A stretch of 38,698 nucleotides of DNA, taken from positions 57,501-96,198 of the forward strand of contig CACEOC010000003.1 of the NCBI GenBank assembly GCA_902561075.1. Direction: 5' to 3'. This DNA comes from an uncultured Pelagibacteraceae bacterium. Its GTDB lineage: Bacteria; Pseudomonadota; Alphaproteobacteria; Pelagibacterales; Pelagibacteraceae. The notes below the pieces were generated by a model. It was not told the origin of the DNA and did not search any database. It saw only the letters and a program-made list of their open reading frames with translations. Below are positions 4,463 through 26,629 of the stretch, piece by piece (within the stretch, counting starts at the first letter, position 1; each line of letters begins with the position of its first letter). The position numbers and the translations under genes were made by a program.

Positions 4463-4703
4463 TTTTCTTTATTAAAAGAATTAAATTCCCAATTGACTTA
4501 AAATCCTCCACACTAACTTTGTTAGTTGGAATAATAACTTTATGTTTTTTTTCTAAAAAAGAAACAATTTCAATTAAAAAAAGTGAGTCAACAATTTCCT
4601 CTCTAATTAAATTTGTAGCTAAATTTATTTTTTTTTTGGATTTTTTGTTAATAACTTTAATTAAATCGTTCTCAATTTTTTTAAGTTTATTTACCTTAAT
4701 CAT
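4452..4703 (-). CDS. Acyl carrier protein-like carrier
   Basis: An 83-residue small protein with the phosphopantetheine attachment motif: EEIVDSLFLIEIV places the modifiable Ser at residue 40, after the conserved Asp and before helix II. Unlike the acidic fatty-acid ACP it is Lys-rich, so it is probably a specialised carrier of the DltC or D-alanyl-carrier kind. It is the last gene of a three-gene minus-strand operon (N-acyltransferase, ligase, carrier) and its start overlaps the end of the ligase gene by 8 bp. It would hold the acyl or aminoacyl group loaded by the ligase. Its 3' end overlaps the flavoprotein gene on the other strand. Confidence 0.8.
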   Translation of the reverse strand: MIKVNKLKKIENDLIKVINKKSKKKINLATNLIREEIVDSLFLIEIVSFLEKKHKVIIPTNKVSVEDFKSIGNLILLIKKITD

Positions 4704-6015
4704 TATTTTTAATTTTTATTCTATCAATTTTGTTATTTCTAAGTCTTGGTAATTTCTTATACCATTTAAACTTTTTTGGAATATGAAAATTGTCTAGCTT
4801 ATTTTTAATTAATGATTTTAATTTATCTATATTAATTTCCTTGGAGGATTCATAAGCACAAAATGGAACATTTCCATAATTTTTCAATTTACCTTTATAG
4901 ACAAATACATCATCAAAGAGATTAGACTCTATGAGGGTATTCTTAATTTTTTGAGTAAAAATTTTTATACCAGAAGATTTAAAAACATCATCCTTTCTTC
5001 CGTGTAGAATTATATTACCATTTTTATCAATATTTCCCTGATCACCGGTAATATAAATATTTTTATTAGGTATCTCAAAGTTTTTCTTAAAATAATAACC
5101 GTAAAATAAATAATTTGATTTAATATAGATATCATTATTTCTTGTCATTAATTTATATATAGGAAGTGGTTTCCCAACAGAATTACAACGGCTTGAGTTT
5201 TTTAAATTATTTATACAAACTCTCCCTGAGGCTTCAGTAATTCCATACATATAATAGAATTCAAAATTTTTTTTAGATTTGTATTTTTTAATAGTTTTAT
5301 TTTCTAAAAAATCACCAGATGAAAAAATTTTTTCAAGTTTAGTCAAATTTTTCTCAGAATCGATTACCCACTTATTGTGAATTGGCGGTCCACCAAAATA
5401 ATTTACATTAAATTTTTCTAAAGAATTTATCAAATCTAATGGAAATATTTTCTCCTCAATAAAAATAAATTTTGATCCACTAACTAGAGCTGTAAAAAAA
5501 TGTAAAATTGAACTATAAAAATATCCTGGAATAGCAATTAAGTAATTCTTTTTTTTTTTAAGTTTACAAAAATTTTTTACTTTTATTACATTTGTCATAA
5601 TTTTATCAAAATTGAGTAAAATAAGTTTTGGTTTACCAGTTGAGCCAGATGTTGCAGATATAAAATTAAATTTTAATATATTTTTATTTTTAACAATTTT
5701 TTTTAAGTTTTTAATACTAATTTTTTTTTTATCTAAAATTATTATTGTTTTATAATAATTCTTTAATTCGTTAATTTTATAAGATGAATCAATTGGAAAA
5801 CAAGTATAACCTTCGTTTACACACGATAATATATTCATCCAAAAATAAATACCGTTGCCATTTTTAATAAGCACTAAAGTTTTTTTTTTTTCATATTTTT
5901 TTAATAATTTAGAAATTGAATGCATATATTTTTGTATTTGAGTTTTGTTGAAGTTATTTTTTGAGTCAGCTAACTCAAAATTATCGTGAATGTTAAGTAA
6001 ATTCTTTTTATTCAT
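4696..6015 (-). CDS. AMP-forming acyl/aminoacyl ligase (ANL superfamily)
   Basis: A 439-residue adenylate-forming enzyme with the core ANL motifs in order: TSGSTGKPK (122-130, ATP phosphate loop), YGITEASG (257-264), TGD (323-325), the hinge HGRKDD around R340, and NNKIDR near the end with the catalytic Lys at about 429. It is shorter than acyl-CoA synthetases (500-600 aa), closer in size to stand-alone adenylation enzymes that load carrier proteins. It would activate a carboxylic or amino acid with ATP and transfer it to the phosphopantetheine arm of the ACP encoded next to it. The substrate cannot be deduced by eye. The gene starts 6 bp after the acyltransferase gene and contains runs of 12 (5880-5891) and 11 (5549-5559) A on its coding strand. 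Confidence 0.85.
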   Translation of the reverse strand: MNKKNLLNIHDNFELADSKNNFNKTQIQKYMHSISKLLKKYEKKKTLVLIKNGNGIYFWMNILSCVNEGYTCFPIDSSYKINELKNYYKTIIILDKKKISIKNLKKIVKNKNILKFNFISATSGSTGKPKLILLNFDKIMTNVIKVKNFCKLKKKKNYLIAIPGYFYSSILHFFTALVSGSKFIFIEEKIFPLDLINSLEKFNVNYFGGPPIHNKWVIDSEKNLTKLEKIFSSGDFLENKTIKKYKSKKNFEFYYMYGITEASGRVCINNLKNSSRCNSVGKPLPIYKLMTRNNDIYIKSNYLFYGYYFKKNFEIPNKNIYITGDQGNIDKNGNIILHGRKDDVFKSSGIKIFTQKIKNTLIESNLFDDVFVYKGKLKNYGNVPFCAYESSKEINIDKLKSLIKNKLDNFHIPKKFKWYKKLPRLRNNKIDRIKIKNND

Positions 6016-6021
6016 AATTTA

Positions 6022-6831
6022 CTAGTCATCTATATAATTTTTTTGATCTACCTTTTCATTTTTAAGCCAGATTTTAGGATTATCATTTAATATATTAATT
6101 AATTCATTAACTAGTAAGTTATAATCAGCACAATAAAGTTCTCCTTTATTTAGCTTTATTATTTTAAAGATTTTTTTTTTTTTTAATTTCATAACAATTT
6201 TTTTGTTGTCATCTTTTGCTAATTTATTTGAATTAAATCTTACTCCTAATATGCAATACTGTTTTTTAATTTTATTTTTAATTTGTACTTTAATTCTAAA
6301 TTCTTTGTTAAACCTATAGGGAACACCAACAATATGTTCTGCATAGTGCAACATACCCATAGATTTATGAGGTTTTCCCATAGATATAAATAAAGTATTT
6401 CTTTTGAGCAATCTTTCGAACACTGAATTCTTACCATAGGCAGAATAAGAGGTACCTTTTAGAACTTTTTTTACGTTTTTACCCAAGCCAGCAAATGACC
6501 ATAATGGGTGATTGGATCTAAAGCTTAACCTTTTTTTTCTAATAAATTCAGAAAAAATTCCCATCATGTAAGATTTTGAATTTTTATTTGAAAATTTTCC
6601 TCTATTTTCTGTTAAATTGAGTGTAGCTGTAGGAACATATAAATCTTTATTTTTACCAATTTTTTTTTGAAACTTATCCAGAAAAATTTGAGGAAACAAT
6701 TCTGTATCTTTAATAGAAAATCCAAAATTATAAATATTTCCAGCTATATAAAATGAATTATATTTTCTAGTATTAATTTGATTTATAGCGTTATGAATTT
6801 TAGATAACATAGAACTAAAATATCTACACAT
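6022..6831 (-). CDS. AAC(3)-family N-acyltransferase, probably acting on an amino sugar
   Basis: A 269-residue protein matching the aminoglycoside 3-N-acetyltransferase fold family. SNHPLWSFAGLG (106-117) is the diagnostic His-Pro...Ser...Ala-Gly segment, and LHYAEH (161-166) carries the catalytic His-x-x-Glu. Family members in glycan clusters acylate an amine on a sugar rather than an antibiotic. Sitting upstream of a ligase and an ACP, it probably takes its acyl group from the carrier instead of acetyl-CoA, which is an inference. First gene of the minus operon. An alternative start at 6810 (Met8) is possible. The coding strand has a run of 14 A (6171-6184) near the C-terminus, which could be unstable. 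Confidence 0.75.
   Translation of the reverse strand: MCRYFSSMLSKIHNAINQINTRKYNSFYIAGNIYNFGFSIKDTELFPQIFLDKFQKKIGKNKDLYVPTATLNLTENRGKFSNKNSKSYMMGIFSEFIRKKRLSFRSNHPLWSFAGLGKNVKKVLKGTSYSAYGKNSVFERLLKRNTLFISMGKPHKSMGMLHYAEHIVGVPYRFNKEFRIKVQIKNKIKKQYCILGVRFNSNKLAKDDNKKIVMKLKKKKIFKIIKLNKGELYCADYNLLVNELINILNDNPKIWLKNEKVDQKNYIDD
6171..6184. repeat. Homopolymer run of 14 T (14 A on the coding strand)
   Basis: Fourteen consecutive T on the plus strand inside the AAC(3)-like gene, encoding Lys codons near the C-terminus. With 35275-35288 it is the longest single-base run I found. A length change would shift the frame of the last part of the protein. Confidence 0.9.
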
Positions 6832-6893
6832 AAAACTTTTATTTTACAAGATAAATGGTAGGTTTTACTTCTAAGTTTTTTTATAAATCATTT

Positions 6894-8150
6894 ATGAAAG
6901 TTTCTATTATAGTTACAAATTTTAATTATGGAAAATATATTGATCGTTGTATTAGAAGTTGTCTAAATCAAAATTATAGTGTTGGTTTAAAAAATTTAAA
7001 AAAAGACTTTGAGGTAATAGTTGTTGATGATTGTTCGAAAGATAACTCAAGAGAAAAAATAAGAAGATTTAATAAAGTAAAGAATTTTAGATACATATTT
7101 AATAAAAAAAATATAGGTGTTGCTGCAAGCGCAAATAAAGCAATACGTGAATCTAAGGGCAAGTATTTTGTTCGTGTAGACTCTGATGATTTTATATCGT
7201 CTTATCTAATAAATATTCTTTCATACTTCCTAGACGAAAACCCGAATTTTTTTGGTGTTGCATGCGATTATTATCACGTAGATAAATTTGAAAATAAAAC
7301 AAAAAAAATTCAATCTGAAAAATTCCCAATCTCATGTGGAATTATGTACAATAAAAAAAAATTTATTAAATATGGTATGTACAAGAAAGAATTTAGACAC
7401 AGAGAAGAAGAAGAACTTAAAATTAGATTAGGTGAAAAATATAAAATATTTAATCTACCGCTTCCGCTTTATAGATATAGGATGCATACTAATAATAAAA
7501 CAAAATCAAATGGTTATCTTAAAGATTTTAAGAATAAAATTTTAGATTTATCTTTTGATAAATTAAAAAAAAGTAAAAATAAGTTGTTAAATAATATTAT
7601 ATTAATAATACCTGCAAGAGGAAATTCAAAAAGATTTAAGAGTAAAAATATATTTAAATTAAAGAATAAGCCCATGATATATTATGCAATACAAGCTGCG
7701 AAGAATTCAAGATTTCTGAAACAAATTTATGTTAGTTCTGAGAGTAAAAGAATTATGAATATTGCATCGAAGTACAAAGTCAAAATAATCAAAAGACCTA
7801 ATTATTTATCTAAAGATAAAGTATTTAAAATAGAAGTTATTAGACATGCTGTCAGAGAAATTGAAAAAAATAAAAAAAAATTATGTAGTTTGGTAGTTAG
7901 TTTACAACCAAACTCTCCAGAAGTTAAATCTTTTCAAATCGATAGTGCAATTAAAAAACTTATAGAAAATAACCTCCAAGAAGTAATAACCGTTGACGCT
8001 AATCTAAACTCAAATGCAGCTATAAGAGTAATGAAAAGAAATGCTTTATTTCAAGAGAGTTTAAGTACATATTTAGGTTGTATAAAAACAGATATTAATG
8101 ATATTCATTACAAAAAAGATTTAAAAAAAATTGATTTACTTAAGTTTTAA
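6894..8150 (+). CDS. GT2 glycosyltransferase fused to a NeuA-like CMP-sugar synthetase
   Basis: A two-domain protein. I place the start at the ATG at 6894, because the GT2 fold begins right there (MKVSIIVTNFNYG); an upstream ATG at 6855 would add 13 unmatched residues. Numbering from 6894: the GT2 domain (1 to about 215) has VVDD (43-46) and the metal-binding VDSDD (95-99). After a Lys-rich linker, a cytidylyltransferase domain (about 235-418) has IPARGNSKRFKSKN (239-252), the CTP-binding signature of CMP-NeuAc and CMP-Kdo synthetases, and LQPNSP (337-342). It would make a CMP-activated acidic sugar and perhaps transfer a sugar. The synthetase domain is somewhat shorter than free NeuA. It overlaps the NeuB-like gene by one base (TAATG). 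Confidence 0.8.
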   Translation: MKVSIIVTNFNYGKYIDRCIRSCLNQNYSVGLKNLKKDFEVIVVDDCSKDNSREKIRRFNKVKNFRYIFNKKNIGVAASANKAIRESKGKYFVRVDSDDFISSYLINILSYFLDENPNFFGVACDYYHVDKFENKTKKIQSEKFPISCGIMYNKKKFIKYGMYKKEFRHREEEELKIRLGEKYKIFNLPLPLYRYRMHTNNKTKSNGYLKDFKNKILDLSFDKLKKSKNKLLNNIILIIPARGNSKRFKSKNIFKLKNKPMIYYAIQAAKNSRFLKQIYVSSESKRIMNIASKYKVKIIKRPNYLSKDKVFKIEVIRHAVREIEKNKKKLCSLVVSLQPNSPEVKSFQIDSAIKKLIENNLQEVITVDANLNSNAAIRVMKRNALFQESLSTYLGCIKTDINDIHYKKDLKKIDLLKF

Positions 8151-11071: not shown

Positions 11072-12109
11072 ATGAAATATTTCCAAAAATATAATTATTG
11101 TATATATTGCGGTTCATCAAAATTAAAAAAAGAAAAAAATCAAATTCATCCTAAAAATTTTTATGTTGATGCAATTAAATCTGATTTAAATTTATCACAG
11201 AAACAATTAAACAATATAACTGTTCACCGCTGTTTAAACTGCAACATATTACAAAATAATCCATGGTTTAAAAAAGAAATTTCAAGAAGAATTTATTCAA
11301 ATATATATGGACAACATAACAGAAGTTGGACTAATTTAATAAATTTCGTTAAAAATAATAAACTTCCAAATCATGGTGATTTATATAAAATTTTAAGTAA
11401 AAATATAAAGATTAAAAATTACGCAGAATATAATAGCCCATTTATGGGATTATTTTTAAATTTTTTTAAAGAAGAATATAAAAATAATAAACTTTTTTAT
11501 AAAAATTTATCCAATAAAGTTTTTGATTATTTTAATTTCAGACAGGTTGCAGGTAAATCAAAAATATTGCAAAAAAAATATTTTAAAAAATCAATTAAAT
11601 CTTACTCTGATATTTTAATTTTAAAGAAAAAGAATCTAAAGAAAAAAAATTTAAAAAAAAAATACCTTTTTATCGATAATTCAAATTTATTTTGGGGACA
11701 AAACGATAATTATAAATCCGTTAATAGCAAAAGTTTTGCTGAAGAATTTTTAGATCTTCAAATTTCGAATCATTATAAAAATATCAAAGCTAAATCCTTT
11801 GATCTATTTGGAATTTTTCATACTTTAGACCATACATTTGAACCTAAGAAAATTTTAGATTTTGCATTAAACTCAAGTAAAGTTGTAATTATATATTGTC
11901 ATGCTGATAAAACAGTAAACAAACAACATTTATTTACATTTACAAGTGATTTTGTAAAATATTTGAATAAAAATAAAATAAATACTTTTGATTTGACAAA
12001 TAAAATAAAAAAGAATTTTAAATCAAAAGAATTATATTTTATATGTTCTAGACAAAAAACTTATTTAAATAAATTTAAAAAATCATTTGAAAAAAAAATT
12101 GAAAAATAA
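11072..12109 (+). CDS. Zinc-ribbon protein with a degenerate methyltransferase-like domain
   Basis: 345 residues. The N-terminus has C10-x2-C13 and C54-x2-C57, a four-cysteine ribbon like that of the methyltransferase gene two places upstream. No clear glycine-rich SAM loop is visible. The region around FGIFHTLDHTFEP (about residues 248-260) looks like the post-SAM segment of C-methyltransferases, followed by VVIIYCHAD where a strand of the fold would be. It may be a divergent or inactive methyltransferase that partners the protein encoded at 8880, or a rearranged one; I cannot decide. The 3' end overlaps the next gene by 23 bp. Confidence 0.55.
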   Translation: MKYFQKYNYCIYCGSSKLKKEKNQIHPKNFYVDAIKSDLNLSQKQLNNITVHRCLNCNILQNNPWFKKEISRRIYSNIYGQHNRSWTNLINFVKNNKLPNHGDLYKILSKNIKIKNYAEYNSPFMGLFLNFFKEEYKNNKLFYKNLSNKVFDYFNFRQVAGKSKILQKKYFKKSIKSYSDILILKKKNLKKKNLKKKYLFIDNSNLFWGQNDNYKSVNSKSFAEEFLDLQISNHYKNIKAKSFDLFGIFHTLDHTFEPKKILDFALNSSKVVIIYCHADKTVNKQHLFTFTSDFVKYLNKNKINTFDLTNKIKKNFKSKELYFICSRQKTYLNKFKKSFEKKIEK

Positions 12110-13175
12110 AAAATTAAAAAAAGACGTCACATTTTTTTACTCAGATCATATTGAAAAAAATACTTGGGTAAACCTAAAAAAAAGGCTAAAAAATAAAGGT
12201 TATAAAACAAGATTTTCAAATAAATTAAGAGGAAAAGCTGAGATCGGTTTTTATAACCATGATCTAAATATTAATAATAATTCAAAATTTTCAATAATCT
12301 CTTTACATGGTATGGATCAGGGAAGAACAAGTTGGCCAAATGCTTGGAAAAAAACTAGGTGGGACCTATATGATATTGGACTTTTGCCTGGAAAAAAGTG
12401 GGTTAATTTATGGAAAACTTCTTGTAAAGATCCAAAAGCAAATCCGAGAAATGGCGTATACGAGATTGGTTGGCCTAAATCAGATGATATAAATTCTACT
12501 TCTTTTAAGCAAAAAGTTAAAAAGATTAAAAAAAAAATTAACCCAAACAAAAAAACGATCTTGTACGCACCTTCATTTGAAACAGATAATAAACAATTAG
12601 ACATTCTTAATTTAGCCAAAAAAAAGGGGTTAAATTTGATTGTTAAACATTGGCCGTCAAAAGATGATAAAAAATATTCTGATATATATAAGAATACGAT
12701 AAAAATGAATAATATCTCCAAACAAAATTACAAAGATGTTTATATATATCCACCAAAAACAAATATTTTTCTCTATTTAGCTGTAGCTGATATTTTAATA
12801 ACAGATGAGTCCAGTGTTATGTATGAAGCGATGTTATTTAACGTACCAACTATAATACCAAATGATTGGAGCATGAGAATAAACAATTCAAACAAACCAA
12901 GAAAGATAATGCCTTCTAGCGATGCTTATCTTAACTGCCAACTAAACGATTTATCTAAAAATATTTCTTTAACTTTAAATAATCTTTCAGAAGTAAAAAA
13001 AATAATAAAAAAACAAAAAAAATTGCATTTTTCATACATTGAAAATTCTTCAGAAAAAATTTTTAATTTAATAGAAAAAATAATTAACAATGATTTAAGT
13101 TATAAAAGTATAAATGTAAGGAAGCCTTTAAAACGGAGTATTTTTGAAAGAATTAAAAAATATTTTTTAAAATGA
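12087..13175 (+). CDS. CDP-glycerol glycerophosphotransferase-like enzyme
   Basis: About 362 residues resembling the CDP-glycerol:poly(glycerophosphate) glycerophosphotransferase family. Evidence is HGMDQGRTSW near residue 74, KKTILYAPSFETDN at about 150-163, the loop VKHWPS, and DILITDESSVMYEA, the donor-binding Asp-Ser-Ser segment. These enzymes move a phospho-alditol from a CDP donor onto a glycan, or act as related phosphotransferases. The start is a TTG at 12087 (an alternative TTG is at 12099), since no ATG occurs before the conserved core. It overlaps the upstream gene by 23 bp, with a run of 9 A directly after the TTG. In this neighbourhood it is a candidate for transferring a cytidylyl-activated phosphonate, which is speculation. 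Confidence 0.75.
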   Translation: MKKKLKNKKLKKDVTFFYSDHIEKNTWVNLKKRLKNKGYKTRFSNKLRGKAEIGFYNHDLNINNNSKFSIISLHGMDQGRTSWPNAWKKTRWDLYDIGLLPGKKWVNLWKTSCKDPKANPRNGVYEIGWPKSDDINSTSFKQKVKKIKKKINPNKKTILYAPSFETDNKQLDILNLAKKKGLNLIVKHWPSKDDKKYSDIYKNTIKMNNISKQNYKDVYIYPPKTNIFLYLAVADILITDESSVMYEAMLFNVPTIIPNDWSMRINNSNKPRKIMPSSDAYLNCQLNDLSKNISLTLNNLSEVKKIIKKQKKLHFSYIENSSEKIFNLIEKIINNDLSYKSINVRKPLKRSIFERIKKYFLK

Positions 13176-13176
13176 T

Positions 13177-14910
13177 ATGTTTAAGAAGATACTAAAAATT
13201 CTAGATAATAATCAAAGAAATAGATTAATTTTATTAATCTTAAGTTCGTTTCCGCTCATTTTACTTGAAACTATTTCCATTGGATCTCTTCCTATTTACT
13301 TAGTTACAATTATAAATCCATCTAAAATTTTCGAATATTTAGACAACCAGACTTTAGAGAATTTAATATTAAATATGCCAATTTCTGAAAGATCATTATA
13401 TGGATTAATAATTATTTTTATCATTTTCTTTATTAAAGCAATTTATAATTTATTATTTAATTATTTTGAATTAAATATGATAAAAAAGATTAATTTAGAA
13501 CATTCAAGAAAAATTTATTCTTTTTATCTTAATGAAAGTTTTTTATTTCATACTCAGAATAACCCTTCAAAATTAATACAAAATATAGATGATGTAAAAA
13601 GGTCTACTTCTGTTATTTTTAGTATTTTAAAAATCATCAAAGAATTAATTTTAATTTTCTTTATTATTTTTATCTTAGTTTTAAGTAATCCATTAGTATT
13701 ATTAATAACATTATGTATTTTTAGTTTTCCGGTTATTTTTTTCCTAACTATTTTTAAAAAAAATTTAAAGCAAAGAGGTGAAATTGCAAAGAAATCAAGA
13801 ATTTTAATTCTTAAAAACATGCAAGAAAGCTTCTCATTAATTAAATTTATTAAAATGATTGGAAATCAAGAATTTATAGAAAAAAACTTCAATTTACAAA
13901 ATTATAGATCATTACACCAAGAGACCAATGTTGCTTTATTGGCAACAACACCAAAAATTATCCTTGAACTTTTTACTGTGTTGGCTATATCCTTGATAAT
14001 CTTATTCCTCTTTAATAATAACCAATCATTTGAATCAATGTTGCCATTACTCACTTTACTTGTTGTATCATTAGTAAGATTTATACCTTCTGTGGGTATT
14101 ATTTTAGTTGGAATAAATCAATATAAATTTCATTACGTATCATTATTAAATATTTATGAGATATTTATTTTATACAAGAAAAATCAATTAGAGACTAAAA
14201 AAGAAATTAATGAAAAAAAATTAGATTTTAAAAAAAATATCAAATTTTCAGGAGTTGAGTTTTCTTATCCAAATTCAACTAAATCTTCTATTAAAAATTT
14301 GAATTTTCAAATTAAAAAAAATAGTAGCATTGGAATTCAAGGACCAACAGGGTCAGGAAAATCAACTTTAATAGCTTTGTTAATGGGTTTATTAAAACCA
14401 AACCAAGGAGAAATTGTATTTGATGGAATTAGTATTTATCAAAATCTAAAAGGTTGGCAAAAAAATATCGGGTATGTGCCTCAAACTATCCAATTACTAG
14501 ATGACACAATTAAGAATAATATTTGTTTTGGGATTAATGAAAAACAAATAGATTTTGATAGACTAAACAAAGTAGTAGATATATCAGGGATCCGTAATTT
14601 TATAGATAGTCTTGAAAAAAAAATAGATACTATGGTTGGTCATTCTGGTGCTAGAATTTCAGGAGGTCAATTACAGAGAATTGGTATTGCAAGAGCATTA
14701 TATCTTAATCCAAAAATATTAATCTTGGATGAGCCAACAAGCTCATTAGATCCAAATACTGAGGAAAAAATAATAGAAAAAATATTATCCTTAAATGAAT
14801 TAACTGTAGTCTTAATTTCTCACAATCCAAAAGTCATAGAAAAATGTGATAATGTTTTAATTTTGAAAAATCAAACAGTTTTTGAATTAAATAATAAAAA
14901 TAAAATTTAA
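13177..14910 (+). CDS. ABC transporter, fused permease and ATPase (MsbA/PglK-like exporter)
   Basis: 577 residues with the half-transporter layout. An N-terminal membrane domain (about 1-320) has hydrophobic segments near 17-45, 72-95, 147-168, 172-193, 260-280 and 288-312. The nucleotide-binding domain follows, with Walker A GPTGSGKST (389-397), Q-loop Gln at 436, signature ISGGQ (495-499), Walker B ILILDEP (514-520) and H-loop His 549. All catalytic motifs are intact. It would form a homodimer in the inner membrane. In this locus a lipid-linked oligosaccharide flippase role like PglK or WlaB is likely, and no Wzx-type flippase is visible in the window. The gaps to its neighbours are 1 bp upstream and 3 bp downstream. 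Confidence 0.9.
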   Translation: MFKKILKILDNNQRNRLILLILSSFPLILLETISIGSLPIYLVTIINPSKIFEYLDNQTLENLILNMPISERSLYGLIIIFIIFFIKAIYNLLFNYFELNMIKKINLEHSRKIYSFYLNESFLFHTQNNPSKLIQNIDDVKRSTSVIFSILKIIKELILIFFIIFILVLSNPLVLLITLCIFSFPVIFFLTIFKKNLKQRGEIAKKSRILILKNMQESFSLIKFIKMIGNQEFIEKNFNLQNYRSLHQETNVALLATTPKIILELFTVLAISLIILFLFNNNQSFESMLPLLTLLVVSLVRFIPSVGIILVGINQYKFHYVSLLNIYEIFILYKKNQLETKKEINEKKLDFKKNIKFSGVEFSYPNSTKSSIKNLNFQIKKNSSIGIQGPTGSGKSTLIALLMGLLKPNQGEIVFDGISIYQNLKGWQKNIGYVPQTIQLLDDTIKNNICFGINEKQIDFDRLNKVVDISGIRNFIDSLEKKIDTMVGHSGARISGGQLQRIGIARALYLNPKILILDEPTSSLDPNTEEKIIEKILSLNELTVVLISHNPKVIEKCDNVLILKNQTVFELNNKNKI

Positions 14911-14913
14911 AAA

Positions 14914-15564
14914 ATGAAAAAAAATTTTTATGTAGAGTTTATTGGAATGCCAGCTAGCGGTAAATCTTATTATTGTAAAAAGATAAAAAAGATATTTCAA
15001 AAAGAAAAGATCGCAACTAATGATTACAATATCTTAAGCAAACCAAAAAAAATTTTTTTTTTAATTTTTTTTTTTATAAAATATACAACTTATTCAATAA
15101 GAATTTTTAACACATTTTTGAATTTAAATTTTTCTCGATGGGAAGTGAGGAAACATTTTTATTACTTTATCAATGAGGCTTCATTGCGTATTTATCATGA
15201 ACTAAATAAAAATTTAGTAATAAACTCAGAAGGTTTTAGATATAGATCACTATTTTATATAATTTGTAACTCCAACAAAAAAAAAATGAGATATATAAGT
15301 AAACTTATAAATTCACAACCAAAAGTTCATTTGCTTATAATTATAAAATCAAAAAAAAAAATTAATTTAGAAAGAAGTAAAAATAGAAAAAAGGGCTATA
15401 AATACACAAATCAAGAAAAAAAAATGTATGAAAAAAATGAAAAAATTATTATGCAAATTTGTCAAGAAAGTAGTAAAAAATCTTCTGTTATAAATATTAC
15501 AAAAAAAAATGAAAAAAAAGATTTAAAAAAAATCGTAAATGAAATTAAAAAGTTTTATAAATAA
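14914..15564 (+). CDS. P-loop kinase-like protein of unknown substrate
   Basis: 216 residues with Walker A GMPASGKS at 11-18, resembling small-molecule or nucleotide kinases. The middle is unusually hydrophobic (about 48-72, encoded by T-rich sequence with runs of 10 and 11 T at 15053-15062 and 15065-15075). INSEGF (about 105-110) would sit at the second conserved strand, and ERSKNRKKGY resembles an Arg-rich lid. No assignment to a known kinase family is safe. It lies between the ABC exporter and the cytidylyltransferase genes, so phosphorylation of a precursor for nucleotidyl activation is a reasonable guess. Confidence 0.5.
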   Translation: MKKNFYVEFIGMPASGKSYYCKKIKKIFQKEKIATNDYNILSKPKKIFFLIFFFIKYTTYSIRIFNTFLNLNFSRWEVRKHFYYFINEASLRIYHELNKNLVINSEGFRYRSLFYIICNSNKKKMRYISKLINSQPKVHLLIIIKSKKKINLERSKNRKKGYKYTNQEKKMYEKNEKIIMQICQESSKKSSVINITKKNEKKDLKKIVNEIKKFYK

Positions 15565-15573
15565 ATTAAATAA

Positions 15574-15975
15574 ATGAAAAAACAAAAAAAAATATTAGTG
15601 GATATGTCGGCATCAATTATTCATCATGGTCATATAAGATTATTAAAAAAAGCTAGTAAATACGGAAGAGTTATTATTGCTTTAACTACTGATAAAGATT
15701 TAAAAAAGTTCAAAAATTTTAGTCCAGAAATTAAATTTAAAAATAGAGCTGAGATACTAGAATCTATTAAATATGTATATAAAGTTATACCTTCAAACTA
15801 TATTGTTGACGATAAATTTGTTACAAAGAATAAAATAAATTTAGTAATAAATGGAGCAGATTATAAAAATAGAAAATTTAAAGTTAGATCAATTTATTTT
15901 GAAAGAACAAAAAATATTAGTAGTTCAATAATAAGAAAAAGGGCAGCAAAAAATTATGAAAAAACAAAAAAATAA
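15574..15975 (+). CDS. Stand-alone cytidylyltransferase-like protein (HxGH family)
   Basis: A 133-residue single-domain nucleotidyltransferase of the glycerol-3-phosphate cytidylyltransferase/TagD type. HHGH at 17-20 is the nucleotide-binding signature, and TKNISSSIIRKR near the C-terminus corresponds to the second signature (ISS/T then Arg). The usual GxFDxxHxGH is altered to DMSASIIHHGH. Its length fits the family (about 130 aa). It would couple a phospho- or phosphono-compound to CMP or AMP. It overlaps by 20 bp the next gene, whose N-terminal domain is a diverged version of the same fold. Its donor and acceptor are unknown. Confidence 0.75.
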   Translation: MKKQKKILVDMSASIIHHGHIRLLKKASKYGRVIIALTTDKDLKKFKNFSPEIKFKNRAEILESIKYVYKVIPSNYIVDDKFVTKNKINLVINGADYKNRKFKVRSIYFERTKNISSSIIRKRAAKNYEKTKK

Positions 15976-17266
15976 AAAAGTTTATATTGGTTTATCGATT
16001 GATATTTTGCATCATGGGCATATAAATTTGATCAACAAAGCAAAAAAATATGGGGATTTAATTGTTGGTCTTTATACAGATAAAGCAATAACGACTCATA
16101 AACAGCTTCCTCTTATTTCATATGAAAATAGAAAAAAAATTTTAAAAAATATAAGCGGCATAAAAAGAATTATTCCCCAAAATGAATGGGAATACTGTAA
16201 TAATTTGAAAAAAATTAAACCAGATTTTATGGTGCATGGAGATGATTGGAAGTTTAATGAAACAAAATTAAGAACAAAAACTCTAGGCACACTAAAAAAA
16301 ATTGGAACAAAATTAATTGAAATTCCATATACAAAAAATATTTCTAGTTCAGGTTTAAATGAAAGAATGTTTCAACAAAATATGCTTCCAAATAATAGAA
16401 TGTCATCATTAAAGAGAATGATAGAGAGTGGAAAGTTTTGTAGAATAATTGAGGCACACAGCCCTTTATCAGCATTAATTTCAGAAAAGATTTTCTATGA
16501 AAAAAAAAATGGAGAAAAAATAAGTTTTGATGGTTTTTGGTCAAGTTCATTAACTGACTCGGCATTAAGAGGTAAACCCGACATAGAAGTAATTGAAATA
16601 AACCAAAGGTTATCAAATATTAATGAGATTTTTGATGTCACATCTAAACCATTAATAATTGATGTTGATACAGGTGGTAAGCCAGAACATTTTGAAATTA
16701 ACGTTAAAACAATTCAGAGATATGGTGTTTCAGCTCTTATTGTTGAAGATAAAAAGGGATTAAAAAAGAATTCGCTATTTGGAACTGAAGTAAAGCAAGA
16801 ACAAGAAAGTATAAAGGCTTTTTCAAAAAAAATTAAAGTTGGAAAAAATGTAAGTGATAGTGATTTTATGATTATTTCAAGAATAGAAAGCCTGATATTA
16901 AATAAACCTATTTCTGATGCATATAAAAGAGCATGTGAATATTTAAATGCAGGGGCGGATGCCATCATGATTCATAGTAAACATAAATCCCCTAAAGAGG
17001 TGTTAAAATTTGCAGACATTTTTAAAAGAAAATATCCAAATGTTCCTTTAGTAGCAGTTCCTTCTAGCTATAACAAAATTAGAGAAACAGACCTCATAAA
17101 TAGCGGGTTCAATATTGTGATTTATGCAAACCAACTGCTTAGGGCCTCTTATCCAGCAATGTATAAAACTGCTTTAGGTATTTTAAGAAATGGTCGATCA
17201 TTTGAAATTGAAAAATCTTTGTTGAGTATAAAAGAAATATTAGAATTAATCCCAGGAACAAAATAA
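15956..17266 (+). CDS. pepM: Cytidylyltransferase domain fused to phosphoenolpyruvate phosphomutase
   Basis: 436 residues, two domains. The N-terminal part (1 to about 135) is an HxGH nucleotidyltransferase: HHGH 19-22, MVHGDDWKF (92-100), NISSSG (128-133). The C-terminal part (about 148-436) is PEP mutase of the isocitrate lyase superfamily: SLTDS (198-202), the metal-binding DVDTGG (236-241, D236 and D238), and EDKKGLKKNS (264-273), which fits the EDK-x5-NS signature separating true PEP mutases from lyases. PEP mutase converts PEP to phosphonopyruvate, the first step of nearly all phosphonate synthesis. Fusion to a nucleotidyltransferase fits the known PntC-type activation of 2-aminoethylphosphonate as CMP-AEP. 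Ppd and transaminase genes follow directly, 3 bp and then 0 bp apart. Confidence 0.93.
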   Translation: MKKQKNKKVYIGLSIDILHHGHINLINKAKKYGDLIVGLYTDKAITTHKQLPLISYENRKKILKNISGIKRIIPQNEWEYCNNLKKIKPDFMVHGDDWKFNETKLRTKTLGTLKKIGTKLIEIPYTKNISSSGLNERMFQQNMLPNNRMSSLKRMIESGKFCRIIEAHSPLSALISEKIFYEKKNGEKISFDGFWSSSLTDSALRGKPDIEVIEINQRLSNINEIFDVTSKPLIIDVDTGGKPEHFEINVKTIQRYGVSALIVEDKKGLKKNSLFGTEVKQEQESIKAFSKKIKVGKNVSDSDFMIISRIESLILNKPISDAYKRACEYLNAGADAIMIHSKHKSPKEVLKFADIFKRKYPNVPLVAVPSSYNKIRETDLINSGFNIVIYANQLLRASYPAMYKTALGILRNGRSFEIEKSLLSIKEILELIPGTK

Positions 17267-17269
17267 TTA

Positions 17270-18376
17270 ATGATAAATATTAATGATTTTGTGAAAGAAC
17301 TTACTAAAAATGGATTAACATTTAGTGTTGGAGTCCCTGATTCTTTATTTAAAAATCTTTGTTTTAGTTTTGAATATTCATTTAAAAAAAATCATTCGGT
17401 GTCTGCAAATGAGGGATCTGCAATTGGTCTTGGCATTGGTTATCATCTATCTACAAACAAAATTCCAATTATTTATATGCAAAATTCAGGTCTTGGAAAT
17501 TCAATCAACCCTTTAATATCTCTAGCTGATAACAAAGTTTATAGTATACCATTATTTTTAATAATTGGCTGGAGAGGTGAAAAAAATAAAAAATTTATTG
17601 ACGAACCCCAACACAGAACTCAAGGTAAAGTGACTCAACAATTTTTAAAAAATTTGGGTATTAAATACAAAGTACTAAATAGCTTAAGTAAATATAAAAA
17701 AGATATAAAATTCTTAAAAAATTATGCAAAAAAAAACAAAAAACCTGTAGCCTTACTTATAAAAAAAAATACTTTTGAAGATATAAAATTGAAAAAAGTT
17801 AAAAAAAAAGTTTATCCTCTTAGAGAAAAATTGTTAAAAATTATACTTAAAAAACTACCCAATAAATCTAATATAGTTTCTACAACTGGAATTATTTCAC
17901 GAGAAATTTATGAAAATAAAACCAAAAAAAACAATATTAATCATTTTATGTGTGTTGGTGGAATGGGACACGCAATATCTGTTGCTCAAGGAATAGCGAA
18001 AACTTCAAAAAAAAAAATATTTTGTTTTGATGGAGATGGCGCTTTAACAATGCATATGGGATCTCTCTCTACAAGTAAAAATTTAAATAATTTAGTACAT
18101 ATTGTTTTTAACAATTTTAGTCATGAGTCGGTTGGTGGCCATGATAATGCCGCTAAACATGTGAAATTTTATGAACTAGCAAAAATTCTTGGATATAAAA
18201 ACTCTGTAGTTTGCAAAAATGAGAAAGAAGTATTATTAAGTTTAAAAAAATCACTAAAATCCAATAGAAATTATTTCATTGAAATTTTATGTGCTAAAGG
18301 TCATAGAAAAAATATTTCTAGACCAAAGGAAAATATGATCTATTTAAAAAATACTTTTATGAAAAAATTTAGATAA
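17270..18376 (+). CDS. ppd: Phosphonopyruvate decarboxylase
   Basis: A 368-residue thiamine diphosphate enzyme, near the usual Ppd length of about 375. The N-terminal pyrimidine-binding domain begins DFVKELTKNGLTFSVGVPDS, and SANEGSA supplies the catalytic Glu. The C-terminal domain has FDGDGALTMHMGS followed about 25 residues later by NN, the ThDP-magnesium motif. The family-typical MGMGHA-like segment reads GGMGHAIS. It decarboxylates phosphonopyruvate to phosphonoacetaldehyde, the step that makes PEP mutase run forward. It lies 3 bp after pepM and ends directly against the transaminase gene. A run of 11 A (18007-18017) is in frame. Confidence 0.92.
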   Translation: MININDFVKELTKNGLTFSVGVPDSLFKNLCFSFEYSFKKNHSVSANEGSAIGLGIGYHLSTNKIPIIYMQNSGLGNSINPLISLADNKVYSIPLFLIIGWRGEKNKKFIDEPQHRTQGKVTQQFLKNLGIKYKVLNSLSKYKKDIKFLKNYAKKNKKPVALLIKKNTFEDIKLKKVKKKVYPLREKLLKIILKKLPNKSNIVSTTGIISREIYENKTKKNNINHFMCVGGMGHAISVAQGIAKTSKKKIFCFDGDGALTMHMGSLSTSKNLNNLVHIVFNNFSHESVGGHDNAAKHVKFYELAKILGYKNSVVCKNEKEVLLSLKKSLKSNRNYFIEILCAKGHRKNISRPKENMIYLKNTFMKKFR

Positions 18377-19360
18377 ATGAAAAAAACAATTCTTAATTTT
18401 GTTAAACAACAGAACTTTAAAAAAAAACTTTTTACCCCAGGTCCTGCAAGTTTGTTGTCTGAAAATATTTCTTCTTTAGAACCATGTTTTGGGAGAGGTG
18501 ATCAAAAGTACGAGAAAATTGAAAAAGAGGTTTTAAAAAAAATACTCAGCATTAGTGGACAAAAAAAAATAGCAAGACTTCAGGGTTCTGCTAGCTTTGC
18601 TTTAGAAGTTATGATTTCCAATTTTTTATATGGAAAAGTTCTAATTATTAAAACAGGTGTCTATTCTGATAGATTACGTTATATGTGCGAAACTAGTAAA
18701 CTGCACTTTAGATATATTAAAGAGATAAAGTATATCGAGTTCGAGCACTTAGAAAATATTACTGAAAAATTTGATTGGATAATTGGCTGTCCCGTTGAAA
18801 CAAGTATTGGTTTTCGAATACCAATAAAAGATTTATATAAACTTAAAAAAAGACTTAAAGCTAGACTGGCTCTAGATGCGACAGCATCTATAGGGCTAGA
18901 GTTAGATCATAATCTTGCAGATGTAATGGGTTTTAGTTCTTGTAAAGGTTTATTTGGATTAACTGGTGGAGCGTTTATTTGTTTTAATATTAAAAAAAAT
19001 AATGAGATAAAACCTTTTAATTTCAATTTAACAAATCATTTAGAAAAAAAAATGACTGGTCCTTATCATTCTATATGTTCACTTTACGAGATTTTAAAAA
19101 ATTATAATGACTTTAGTTATGCTGTTAAAATCAATAAAAAAATTTTTTTAAAAAAAATGAAAAATTTTTTAAGTTATACTAATTATCATCAGCCAAATTT
19201 GTGTACTTTAATTAATAAAAAAATTAAAGCAAAAAAGAATAATATTATTTTATATCAATCAAGAGCTGATATTAATGGATCAGTTGTTTGTCATCTTGGT
19301 GAAGTGCATTTAAAAAGAAAGGCTAAAGGAAAAATTTTTGATAATTTGATATTAGATTAG
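18377..19360 (+). CDS. phnW: 2-aminoethylphosphonate transaminase-like PLP enzyme
   Basis: 327 residues of class V aminotransferase fold resembling PhnW: FTPGPASL (19-26) at the N-terminus, GSASFALE after the first helix, D167 in LALDATAS contacting the PLP nitrogen, and the Schiff-base Lys190 in SSCKGLFG. The C-terminal Arg of SRADINGS is a possible carboxylate or phosphonate contact. It is somewhat shorter than canonical PhnW (about 365), mostly in the C-terminal domain. Working as the last biosynthetic step, it would aminate phosphonoacetaldehyde to 2-aminoethylphosphonate. The same reaction runs the other way in phosphonate catabolism, but the Ppd and PEP mutase neighbours point to synthesis. 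It closes the 12-gene plus-strand run. Confidence 0.88.
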   Translation: MKKTILNFVKQQNFKKKLFTPGPASLLSENISSLEPCFGRGDQKYEKIEKEVLKKILSISGQKKIARLQGSASFALEVMISNFLYGKVLIIKTGVYSDRLRYMCETSKLHFRYIKEIKYIEFEHLENITEKFDWIIGCPVETSIGFRIPIKDLYKLKKRLKARLALDATASIGLELDHNLADVMGFSSCKGLFGLTGGAFICFNIKKNNEIKPFNFNLTNHLEKKMTGPYHSICSLYEILKNYNDFSYAVKINKKIFLKKMKNFLSYTNYHQPNLCTLINKKIKAKKNNIILYQSRADINGSVVCHLGEVHLKRKAKGKIFDNLILD

Positions 19361-20197: not shown

Positions 20198-20725
20198 TTA
20201 CAAAATTTTATTTAATTTTATAATAAGTTCTTTTGAAATTTTTTGTAATGGAGTTTTAAAATCATTTTTGACTTTAATATTAATATTTTTGGGTAAATAT
20301 GATTTAATATGGACCCCCACAACATCTTTTTTTAATTTGTAAATTTTTTTTTTTTTACCAAAATTTATGATATTTTTTATTTTAGCATCTATATACACAT
20401 TGATTAAATTTTTAATATTGCTTTGCCACACTTGATGAGCAAATTTATTAAGACCTATATTATTATAAATAACATTTATATTTTGATCTAAGATGATGTT
20501 TAAAATTTTATAGACAGAAATAGCACTTTTTGATCTATCTTTTAGTGTATATCCATATTTTTTATCAAAAGCATATAAAAGTTCTCTAAAATCGTCTCCA
20601 TTAATTAGAAGGGTTTTGCCAATCTTTTTTTCAACGTGAGGATGAATGAATTTTGATAAACTTGTTTTGCCCGCACCAGAGTATCCAAAAATAATAATAC
20701 ATATGCCTTTTTTATTTTTTTTCAT
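20198..20725 (-). CDS. APS kinase-like P-loop kinase (first of two)
   Basis: 175 residues resembling adenylylsulfate kinase (CysC): Walker A GYSGAGKT (14-21), INGDDFR (41-47) at the position of the APS-kinase DGDNxR box, and VVGVHIK (135-141) near the C-terminal substrate region. The segment that in CysC carries the phospho-Ser region (ISP-x-R) reads YNNIGLNKFAH here, and the GLNxDLGF stretch is missing. True APS kinase activity is therefore uncertain. Relatives in capsule clusters, such as the Campylobacter phosphoramidate kinase, act on other nucleotides. It overlaps by 14 bp the end of the methyltransferase gene upstream of it. A run of 13 A (20344-20356) lies in the coding strand. Confidence 0.65.
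   Translation of the reverse strand: MKKNKKGICIIIFGYSGAGKTSLSKFIHPHVEKKIGKTLLINGDDFRELLYAFDKKYGYTLKDRSKSAISVYKILNIILDQNINVIYNNIGLNKFAHQVWQSNIKNLINVYIDAKIKNIINFGKKKKIYKLKKDVVGVHIKSYLPKNINIKVKNDFKTPLQKISKELIIKLNKIL
20344..20356. repeat. Homopolymer run of 13 T (13 A on the coding strand)
   Basis: Thirteen T on the plus strand inside the APS-kinase-like gene, encoding four Lys codons. A slip here would change the C-terminal third of the protein. Confidence 0.9.
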
Positions 20726-21494: not shown

Positions 21495-22007
21495 ATGAAA
21501 AAAAAGAGGCTAAATAGGAGCAAAGGAATATTATTTTTTATTACAGGATTGTCTGGAGCTGGAAAAACTACATTTGCGAGACAAATTAAAAGTAAGATTA
21601 AAAAAAGGTATGGTGAAACAATATACTTGGATGGTGATAATTTAAGAAAAATATTTAATTTTAAAGAATATGATAAAAAACAAAGATTTAATAATGTTTT
21701 AAAATATTTAACTCTTGCTAAATTTTTAATCAATAATCGTGTGAATGTAATTTTGAGTGTAATTGGCTTATCTTATAATATTCATAAAATAATAAGAAAA
21801 TTCGATAATCACATAATAATCTTGATAAAAGGAGATGACAAACTGATTAACCAAAAACGTAAATTATTGATAAAAAATATTGTAGGAAAAGATATAAAAG
21901 AAGAATTTCCTAAAAATCCTGAATTAGAAATTTTTAATAAATATAATAAACACAAAAAAATTTTGAAAATCAAAACTATCTTCGATAAAATAATCAAAAT
22001 TATTTAA
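21495..22007 (+). CDS. APS kinase-like P-loop kinase (second copy)
   Basis: 170 residues, also of the CysC type: Walker A GLSGAGKTT (18-26), LDGDNLR (45-51), and IVGKDIKEEF followed by PKNPELEI where APS kinases have the VKGLYKKA/PENPEI-like segment. The region expected to hold the ISP-x-R motif reads LSVIGLSYNIH. It shares the pattern IGLxxxxH with the other copy but with no close CysC. The two copies are clearly diverged from each other and lie on opposite strands with a methyltransferase gene between them. The 3' end overlaps the convergent CMP kinase gene by 8 bp. It either makes PAPS or phosphorylates another nucleotide-linked group. Confidence 0.65.
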   Translation: MKKKRLNRSKGILFFITGLSGAGKTTFARQIKSKIKKRYGETIYLDGDNLRKIFNFKEYDKKQRFNNVLKYLTLAKFLINNRVNVILSVIGLSYNIHKIIRKFDNHIIILIKGDDKLINQKRKLLIKNIVGKDIKEEFPKNPELEIFNKYNKHKKILKIKTIFDKIIKII

Positions 22008-25591: not shown

Positions 25592-26629
25592 TTAAGATTT
25601 TATCAAAGAATTTTTACTTAAATTCTTTGATATATTTTTTGACATTAAATAATTTGGTATTTTCTTACCACTTTTAATTAATTTTCTAATTAGAGTTCCA
25701 CTTATTTTTATTTTACAATTATTATTACAAGAACAACTATTTAAAATTTTAGATTTATTTTTACAAAAATAAGGCTCGCGTTCAGCAATGATTTTTATAT
25801 TAATTTTTTTTTCAATTTTTTTACAAAATTTTTGAGACTCATAAATATCATAAAAATTCTTTATACCAGCATGGTCTCTTCCTATCCAAAAATATTTACA
25901 ACCATAGTTTCGTCTTACTAAGGCATGTAATGCTGCTTCTCTTGGTCCCCCATATCTGGGATATGAAAAAAAAGGTAATACGAGAACATTTTTATTATTG
26001 TATTCACCTTTTACCAGTTGATTAAGTTTTAATATAGTTGAGTCTTTATATTCACCAGATTTATACTGGCCTATCATTGGCTGTATTAGCAGGCCATCAT
26101 ATTTATTAAATAAATATTTATGTATCCATTGATGAGCCAAATGAGGTACATTTCTTGTATGAAAGGCTGCAAATCTTAATTTTTTTATTTTCTTTAAAAC
26201 TTTTGATGGTTTAACAAATCTCTCATCTTCATATTTAGTTTTAAATACTTTTAAAATCCTAAAACTAGAAAATTTATAATTTTCTTTATCAAATTTTTTA
26301 AAAAAAGGATGAGTATGATATTTTTTTCCATAAATTTTTTTTCCAAATTTTTTTTTATTTATTGAAAAAAAAATAATCCTATCAATAGTTGCTATCTTTT
26401 TGTCTTTATAAATAAGATCCAGAGTGTTAAAATTTTTAATTTCATGATATTTTTCTCTATTTATTCCAAAAAAGATTGGAAAAGGAAAAAATTTTTTTTC
26501 GTATTCCATTTTATTGATAATTGATAAAAATTGACTTTTATTTATAAACTTTTTTAGAGGATAAAAAACTTTATGAGTCAAATTTAATAAATCTGAAAAT
26601 TGATTTTGATTGATGTGAAGTTTTGGCAT
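25592..26629 (-). CDS. ATP sulfurylase (Sat)-like nucleotidyltransferase
   Basis: 345 residues matching the homo-oligomeric ATP sulfurylase family: HTRNVPHLAH (157-166) has the HxxH ATP site, where typical enzymes read QTRNPxHxxH. GGPREAALHALVRRNYGC (227-244), GRDHAG (250-255) and ISGTLIR (309-315) are all recognisable. Cysteines at 289, 299, 301 and 305 could bind zinc, as in some bacterial Sat proteins. It is 40 or more residues shorter than usual, and the first Gln and first Pro of the ATP motif are changed to His and Val. It would make APS from ATP and sulfate, or adenylylate another oxyanion. It is a single minus-strand gene, divergent from the FAD and HIT pair. Confidence 0.8.
   Translation of the reverse strand: MPKLHINQNQFSDLLNLTHKVFYPLKKFINKSQFLSIINKMEYEKKFFPFPIFFGINREKYHEIKNFNTLDLIYKDKKIATIDRIIFFSINKKKFGKKIYGKKYHTHPFFKKFDKENYKFSSFRILKVFKTKYEDERFVKPSKVLKKIKKLRFAAFHTRNVPHLAHQWIHKYLFNKYDGLLIQPMIGQYKSGEYKDSTILKLNQLVKGEYNNKNVLVLPFFSYPRYGGPREAALHALVRRNYGCKYFWIGRDHAGIKNFYDIYESQKFCKKIEKKINIKIIAEREPYFCKNKSKILNSCSCNNNCKIKISGTLIRKLIKSGKKIPNYLMSKNISKNLSKNSLIKS

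Follow-up and report, generated by a model that had tools for sequence, protein, structure and literature searches.

The window, a stretch of 38,698 nucleotides covering positions 57501 to 96198 of contig C3 in genome G000 (G000:C3:57501-96198), comes from a member of the Pelagibacteraceae (SAR11) whose assembly comprises 890 kb in 33 contigs and is 70% complete. It contains an operon of four genes predicted to act in phosphonate metabolism: NT1, a standalone nucleotidyltransferase; a fusion of a nucleotidyltransferase domain with phosphoenolpyruvate (PEP) mutase; Ppd, a phosphonopyruvate decarboxylase; and AT, a divergent aminotransferase that may form 2-aminoethylphosphonate (AEP). The nearest named relative found was AG-390-A20, also of the Pelagibacteraceae, at 97% across the fusion.

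A first-pass annotation, made from the letters of the window, had read positions 15574 to 19360 as a complete AEP pathway with a cytidylyltransferase fused to PEP mutase. The span stands as an operon, but the fusion starts only at 15956 and the segment in front of it is a separate gene, NT1. A single gene from 15574 to 17266 was ruled out, as NT1 and the fusion lie in different frames, sharing 20 nt, and NT1 is conserved by itself. The near-zero spacing remarked on earlier was confirmed, with 3 bases between the fusion and Ppd and AT beginning one base past the Ppd stop codon; the standalone NT1 and the divergence of AT had both been overlooked. The same set of four genes was found in genome G003 (81-91% protein identity) and in AG-390-A20 (95-97%), with ratios of nonsynonymous to synonymous substitution rates (dN/dS) of 0.03-0.20 per gene or domain, and the four frames are therefore real genes.

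Table 1. Genes of the phosphonate operon and of the cluster around it, in window coordinates
Feature	Position	Strand	Family evidence
AMP-binding enzyme	4696..6015	-	
Antibiotic_NAT-family gene	6022..6831	-	
Family 2 glycosyltransferase joined to a CTP_transf_3 domain	6855..8150		
PF04464 protein (CDP-glycerol glycerophosphotransferase-like)	12087..13175	+	PF04464 41 bits, cut-off 22.1
PglK/MsbA-like ABC transporter	13177..14910	+	NF050066 PglK 254.1 bits, below cut-off 1000; PF00005 109.3 bits
Small P-loop protein, kinase-like, 'GMPASGKS'	14914..15564	+	no Pfam family above cut-off; weak matches only
NT1, standalone HxGH cytidylyltransferase-type enzyme, 133 aa	15574..15975	+	PF01467 43.9 bits
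Fusion, Fom1-type cytidylyltransferase domain + PEP mutase	15956..17266	+	PF01467 + PF13714; TIGR02320
Ppd, phosphonopyruvate decarboxylase, thiamine enzyme	17270..18376	+	TIGR03297; PF02775/PF02776; GDG at residue 255
AT, short divergent class V aminotransferase, putative AEP-forming transaminase	18377..19360	+	PF00266 26.5 bits
APS-kinase-family gene	20198..20725		
APS-kinase-family gene	21495..22007		
ATP-sulfurylase	25592..26629		

The fusion combines an N-terminal domain of about residues 5-140 (PF01467 match at residues 16-134, E = 3e-17) with a PEP mutase of about residues 150-436, matched at residues 152-435 and scoring 374.6 bits against TIGR02320 (cut-off 319.55). The two-domain protein described earlier was thus recovered, including the PEP mutase motif EDKxxxxxNS, which reads EDKKGLKKNS at residues 264-273 (nt 16745-16774). 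An alignment check of the catalytic residues, suggested by the same annotation, found HHGH (residues 19-22), HGDDW (94-98) and ISSS (129-132) kept in the fused domain, next to HPGH, HGDDW and ISST in Fom1. The Fom1 cytidylyltransferase (5x3d) was also the best solved relative of this domain (E = 1e-37 over 129 residues), with human phosphoethanolamine cytidylyltransferase (1.3e-15) and TagD (4.8e-13) well behind. With PF01467 preceding PEP mutase in a single reading frame, the fusion is of the Fom1 type, and the idea of a new class of HxGH fusion was discarded. The expectation that the HxGH domain would differ from the LicC-like PntC enzymes was correct insofar as PF01467 was the only family matched at E <= 0.001 in NT1 and in the N-terminal domain of the fusion, with no PF12804; however, the class itself was already known. 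A passage in Rice et al. (2019, PMC6697681) reports PF01467 fused to 23.6% of 1485 PEP mutases and gives Fom1 as example, so that the fused architecture is not new; clusters with both fused and nearby nucleotidyltransferases are noted there as well.

Relatives of the fusion were seen in other settings. Matches at 46% identity, spanning 94% of its length, came from two short 'Bacteriophage sp.' records without annotation (MT837901.1 and MT836947.1; human faecal origin), which may represent either host DNA or genuine phage cargo; viral contigs gave no match. In a Saccharibacteria metagenome-assembled genome (MAG; L058, 10001-10942) the frame of a PEP mutase relative has no nucleotidyltransferase domain at its N-terminus; behind it come a Ppd match and, judged by eye, an aldehyde-dehydrogenase-like gene.

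Ppd scored 379.4 bits against TIGR03297 (cut-off 312.5). With PEP mutase and Ppd both above curated cut-offs, the committed phosphonate synthesis of the first-pass annotation is well supported. PEP mutase would form phosphonopyruvate, which Ppd would decarboxylate to phosphonoacetaldehyde. AT would then probably aminate phosphonoacetaldehyde to AEP, a PF01467 cytidylyltransferase would use cytidine triphosphate (CTP) to convert AEP to CMP-AEP, and the CMP-activated group would be handed to a surface glycan, perhaps via the PF04464 protein. As judged from sequence, the locus may be an operon for phosphonate tailoring within an island of SAR11 surface-glycan genes, where AT would supply AEP, and CMP-AEP for attachment to the surface would come from NT1, the fused domain or both; we give this proposal about an even chance of being right. 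The fused Fom1-type domain may share the substrate of NT1 or serve a hydroxyethylphosphonate branch.

AT is a class V aminotransferase of 327 aa. Residues K190 and D167, which we take to be the lysine binding pyridoxal phosphate (PLP) and the aspartate binding its pyridine ring, were invariant in 20 aligned rows (17 AT sequences and three AEP transaminases). Three AEP-transaminase models were matched by all 17 AT sequences scanned, including that of the window, and the next family by 9; PhnW-AepZ had the lowest E-value among the 12 families listed in the AT scan. The AlphaFold2 model reached a mean predicted local distance difference test (pLDDT) score of 93.5, and Foldseek ranked an AEP transaminase (7e7g) first. 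Moreover, none of 22 searched genomes of the genus, all incomplete, had a gene over the cut-off of the AEP-transaminase model TIGR03301. Given this context, the activity of AT would most likely be AEP formation. No match to AT was found in phages, plasmids or viral contigs, and in the phylum, at E <= 1e-30, it was found in the genome of the window only (1 of 398).

NT1 (PF01467, E = 3.5e-11) carries the motifs HHGH (residues 17-20), GAD (94-96) and RTKNISSS (111-118), and this catalytic signature was preserved in an alignment of NT1 from 15 distinct loci. All 15 members matched the TagD model TIGR01518 (best E = 1.9e-18), while NT1 of the window scored 53.7 bits against a cut-off of 165.4. Its AlphaFold2 model (pLDDT 87.1) gave VIA-align Z scores that were about tied for TagD (17.0 for 2b7l, and 16.5), Fom1 (16.2) and human phosphoethanolamine cytidylyltransferase (15.9). 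The CTP-using enzymes (TagD, Fom1, phosphoethanolamine and phosphocholine cytidylyltransferases) spanned Z 17.0-13.3 and the listed phosphopantetheine adenylyltransferases 10.8-11.9, with HldC (13.9) and 3glv (14.8) in between. Because the cytidylyltransferases score above the phosphopantetheine adenylyltransferases, the model suggests CTP as the likelier nucleotide; the acceptor is not readable from the fold. In a tree of 80 nucleotidyltransferase domains, built on few columns and with many forks open, NT1 formed one clade (support 100/94) that included neither TagD nor any Fom1-type domain. In contrast, the fused domains at AT loci were scattered over several parts of the tree (5 label changes, of which starred branches force 2 or more). 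NT1 therefore follows AT and not the lineage of the fusion.

The pairing of the two genes was also apparent across the genus. In a sample of 399 genomes (fusion at E <= 1e-60, AT at E <= 1e-20, NT1 at 168 bits or more, the next score being 94), the fusion was detected in 43, AT in 16 and NT1 in 16. Absences are soft, since just 57 of these genomes combine a completeness of at least 90% with a contamination of no more than 5%. AT and NT1 occurred together in 14 genomes, AT alone in 2, NT1 alone in 2 and neither in 381 (Fisher p = 6e-22, kinship ignored); among the 43 genomes with the fusion, NT1 was present in 14 of the 15 with AT and in none of the 28 without. AT lacked NT1 in G088, at a contig end, and in G389, whose AT (37-39%) lies away from its fusion; G389 was tallied as AT-positive, and G088 stands outside the 43, as its AT contig ends within the fusion. 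Since NT1 tracks AT from genome to genome, we tie it to the product of AT.

Fifteen distinct NT1-AT loci differed in gene order. AT was followed by NT1 with a 4-nt overlap of AT stop and NT1 start in five and at a distance of 0 or 3 nt in two; the order NT1-fusion-Ppd-AT was found in six, and NT1-fusion-AT and Ppd-AT-fusion-NT1 in one each. The near-duplicates L044/L081 (AG-390-A20, G388) and L045/L034 (AH-324-L09, G003) were counted once in these distinct tallies, and G388 is included in the 399-genome tallies and in the 18 AT loci mentioned below, but not in the 17-row and 15-row alignments. The set is complete in a Vulcanococcus MAG (L047), where the fused domain clusters with the G376 domain instead of the main AT group. 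Such a pattern would be expected of a mobile AT-NT1 pair.

Several observations count against AEP formation by AT and AEP activation by NT1. AT scored 70.8 bits against TIGR03301, a fifth of the cut-off of 360.8, while control AEP transaminases at fusion loci passed it (Prevotella L049, 464 bits; Clostridium L054 and L055, 399.9 and 411.5 bits). It reached 58.5 bits on PRK13479 (cut-off 296), which the three controls pass, and 54.9 bits on TIGR02326 (cut-off 400.8), which they fail too. The AEP-transaminase models match only about its first 220 residues. In the alignment its C-terminal domain is shortened, a block of about 23 residues present in three AEP transaminases being absent. The arginine of their 'TFR' motif, presumably the substrate-binding Arg340 of Salmonella PhnW, is missing from all 17 AT rows; an invariant arginine (R296, in 'YxxR') stands a few residues earlier in AT. 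The VIA-align Z scores of AT (32.0-31.0) were tied among several class V aminotransferases, with no signal specific to AEP transaminases. In four of the 22 genus genomes searched with TIGR03301, including the AT genome G247, another aminotransferase outscored AT on that model (142-145 bits, below the cut-off). Of the complete AEP pathway announced by the first reading, PEP mutase and Ppd hold, but the last step is inferential because AT falls so far below the TIGR03301 cut-off.

The same features of AT, its shortened C-terminal domain and missing arginine, would suit an enzyme that does not form AEP but aminates another keto compound (phosphonopyruvate to phosphonoalanine, or a sugar) or carries out other chemistry, with NT1 activating the product. 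G019 would agree with this as well, having NT1-fusion-AT without an intervening Ppd and its best Ppd-like gene on another contig at 284.7 bits, below the cut-off of 312.5. We consider such an activity unlikely, as all AT genomes except G019 and G088 (14 of 16) have a Ppd above the cut-off and as no family outside the AEP transaminases is matched by more than 9 of the AT sequences. No Ppd was seen in G088, whose AT contig stops inside the fusion. A rule that Ppd is missing wherever AT directly follows the fusion proved not to be general, as Ppd lies elsewhere in G019 (below the cut-off) and in G360.

The other difficulties for AEP activation by NT1 concern the division of labor between the two nucleotidyltransferases and the tightness of the pairing. 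The fused domain is conserved in the lineage of the window, with dN/dS values of 0.034 and 0.076 (NG86; one dS saturated, 1.5), so NT1 has not replaced it there, and the idea of NT1 as substitute for a dead fused domain in this lineage was dropped. Loss of fused-domain motifs is also seen outside AT loci (L042, L049, L050, L057, L141, L144, L146 and L149). NT1 occurs without AT in G072, amid core genes, and in G349, on a short contig next to an APS-kinase-family gene. The NT1 profile was built on AT-linked members and favors such members in the search. On a virus contig (L154, 3998-4357) an NT1-like gene of 54% identity lies without AT; of 13 cluster proteins of the window only the two that contain a nucleotidyltransferase match there, and the neighbors look radical-SAM-like by eye. 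Finally, a PF04464 gene lies within the fetched region at only 7 of the 18 AT loci.

These points bear on a different assignment, in which the fused domain is the AEP cytidylyltransferase and NT1 activates another substrate, such as a TagD-like alditol phosphate used by the PF04464 protein. The conservation of the fused domain and the PF04464 gene near NT1 in the window would fit, as would the TagD model being the best family of NT1 (although below its cut-off) and TagD being its best structural match, tied with Fom1. Moreover, L055 (Clostridium) and L049 (Prevotella) combine fusion, Ppd and an AEP transaminase above the cut-off, with no solo PF01467 or LicC-like gene flagged; L054 (Clostridium) is similar, but has a LicC-like match of 104 bits near the fusion. 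However, NT1 tracks AT and not PF04464, and the fused domain of L049 reads HPGL instead of HxGH. At L087 and L089, where AT and Ppd are still present, the catalytic signature of the fused domain is gone (NLGH, and SKSN with HKNSW), while the NT1 residues are retained; milder changes were seen at L085 (HHAH) and L090 (ISS gone). On balance we regard this assignment as doubtful. Two further signs of divergence between AT loci and dehydrogenase loci were sought in the fusions and not found: the fused domain did not evolve faster relative to the mutase at AT loci (ratio 1.18 against 1.37), and only three alignment columns distinguish the two kinds of locus, even loosely.

The dehydrogenase loci belong to a second group of fusion genomes. 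Besides the 15 with AT, 23 others of the 43 have an alcohol dehydrogenase of the hydroxyethylphosphonate type in the fusion cluster, located beyond Ppd in 22 and next to the fusion in G431; neither gene was in view in the five remaining fusion genomes (G037, G061, G235, G376 and G413). The dehydrogenases were called with a local profile, and five of five examined with Pfam (L037-L040 and L046) were Fe-ADH; the AT profile used alongside was built without L044 and L092. At three loci (L046, L083 and L084) AT and NT1 occur together with the alcohol dehydrogenase, which has a further standalone nucleotidyltransferase, NT2, directly upstream; Fe-ADH and PF01467 (NT2) were confirmed at L046. In the genome of the window, contig C28 (L043, 2761-3289) ends in NT2 and a 32-residue N-terminal piece of an iron alcohol dehydrogenase, 63% identical to that of L046, and the cell therefore probably carries both an amine and an alcohol branch.

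These observations would be consistent with SAR11 splitting phosphonoacetaldehyde into an amine branch, with a new family of trimmed transaminases, and an alcohol branch, each having its own PF01467 cytidylyltransferase where both occur (NT1 for AEP and NT2 for hydroxyethylphosphonate) besides the fused one; we put this forward tentatively, as a possibility short of even probability. The dehydrogenase clusters (23 fusion loci in the genus), the presence of such a gene, or of its start at least, in the genome of the window, and the activation of hydroxyethylphosphonate by Fom1, the closest solved relative of the fused domain, could also mean that hydroxyethylphosphonate is the principal product and is activated by the fused domain, with AT and NT1 a minor addition. 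This seems very improbable to us, as a close dehydrogenase match was found in only 3 of the 16 AT genomes (G266, G210 and, as the 32-residue piece, G000); among the other 13, all incomplete, nine gave only about 62 bits or less and four none.

The proposed AEP tailoring would take place in a glycan setting. As NeuB, a glycosyltransferase fused to CTP_transf_3, a further glycosyltransferase, an epimerase and a UDP-sugar dehydrogenase surround the operon, the glycan cluster named in the first-pass annotation is real. The PF04464 protein is a candidate transferase of the CMP-activated group, and the PglK/MsbA-like transporter might possibly export the glycan. The small P-loop gene accompanies part of the AT loci (7 loci, including one near-duplicate). 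In G019, a CDP-alcohol phosphatidyltransferase (PF01066; L035, 1-668) lies directly downstream of NT1-fusion-AT and may be a candidate transferase of the CMP-activated phosphonate, perhaps yielding a phosphonolipid.

Further genes of the cluster are of interest in their own right. The CTP_transf_3 domain (CMP-sialate synthetase family) is joined to a family 2 glycosyltransferase, and NeuB follows. An ATP-sulfurylase and two adenosine phosphosulfate (APS)-kinase-family genes also lie in the cluster, and APS-kinase-family genes adjoin NT1 at L036, L085, L086 and L089 (by clustering) and at L188 (by Pfam); they possibly serve glycan sulfation, or provide a kinase tied to the NT1 product. An Antibiotic_NAT-family gene and an AMP-binding enzyme, inside the same cluster, perhaps decorate sugars with acyl or amino groups.

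Known systems share parts of this arrangement. Fom1 has the same two-domain order and the HxGH, HGDDW and ISS motifs in common with the fusion; however, it makes CMP-hydroxyethylphosphonate in the fosfomycin pathway (PMC6697681), whereas the operon of the window has an aminotransferase and lies in a glycan island. PntC and PntC-AEPT proteins (Rice et al., 2019) share the logic proposed here, AEP and then CMP-AEP for surface tailoring, but PntC is LicC-like (PF12804) and both nucleotidyltransferases of the window are PF01467. AT shares with PhnW/AepZ (TIGR03301) the fold class and the PLP lysine and aspartate, and differs in its shortened C-terminal domain, the absent C-terminal arginine and a score of a fifth of the cut-off. 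NT1 has the fold and the HxGH, GxD and RTxxIS motifs of TagD (CTP:glycerol-3-phosphate cytidylyltransferase), but falls below the TIGR01518 cut-off and is separate in the tree.

Acker et al. (2022, PMC8931226) describe phosphonate clusters of SAR11 and Prochlorococcus; in single-cell genomes of SAR11 pepM is often located close to glycan genes. They place pepM in 18% of SAR11 cells and propose a surface phosphonoglycoprotein, and their main text uses none of the terms nucleotidyl, cytidyl, aminotransferase or transaminase. Passages of a survey in ISME J (2022, PMC9381506) treat pepM, aepY, phpC and phnW, with no AT-NT1 pair in those passages. A search of the open-access literature by title and abstract, with subscription papers and supplements outside its scope, yielded no description of AT or of an HxGH-type AEP cytidylyltransferase. 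NT1 as such an enzyme would be of a kind for which we found no report in that literature. The fusion is thus of a known kind, and novelty, if any, may lie in the divergent AT and its companion NT1.

Few bacterial groups of the ocean are as abundant as SAR11, and the type of phosphonate made by a cell matters for the fate of the compound. According to the abstract of PMC8316502, dissolved organic matter tends to build up alkylphosphonates but not aminophosphonates. As AT lies far under the AEP-transaminase cut-offs, the amine branch would escape surveys that rely on trusted cut-offs. The AT-NT1 pair is open to a direct, small biochemical test and, if the proposed activity is true, the AT family would be a source of AEP that is invisible to such surveys.

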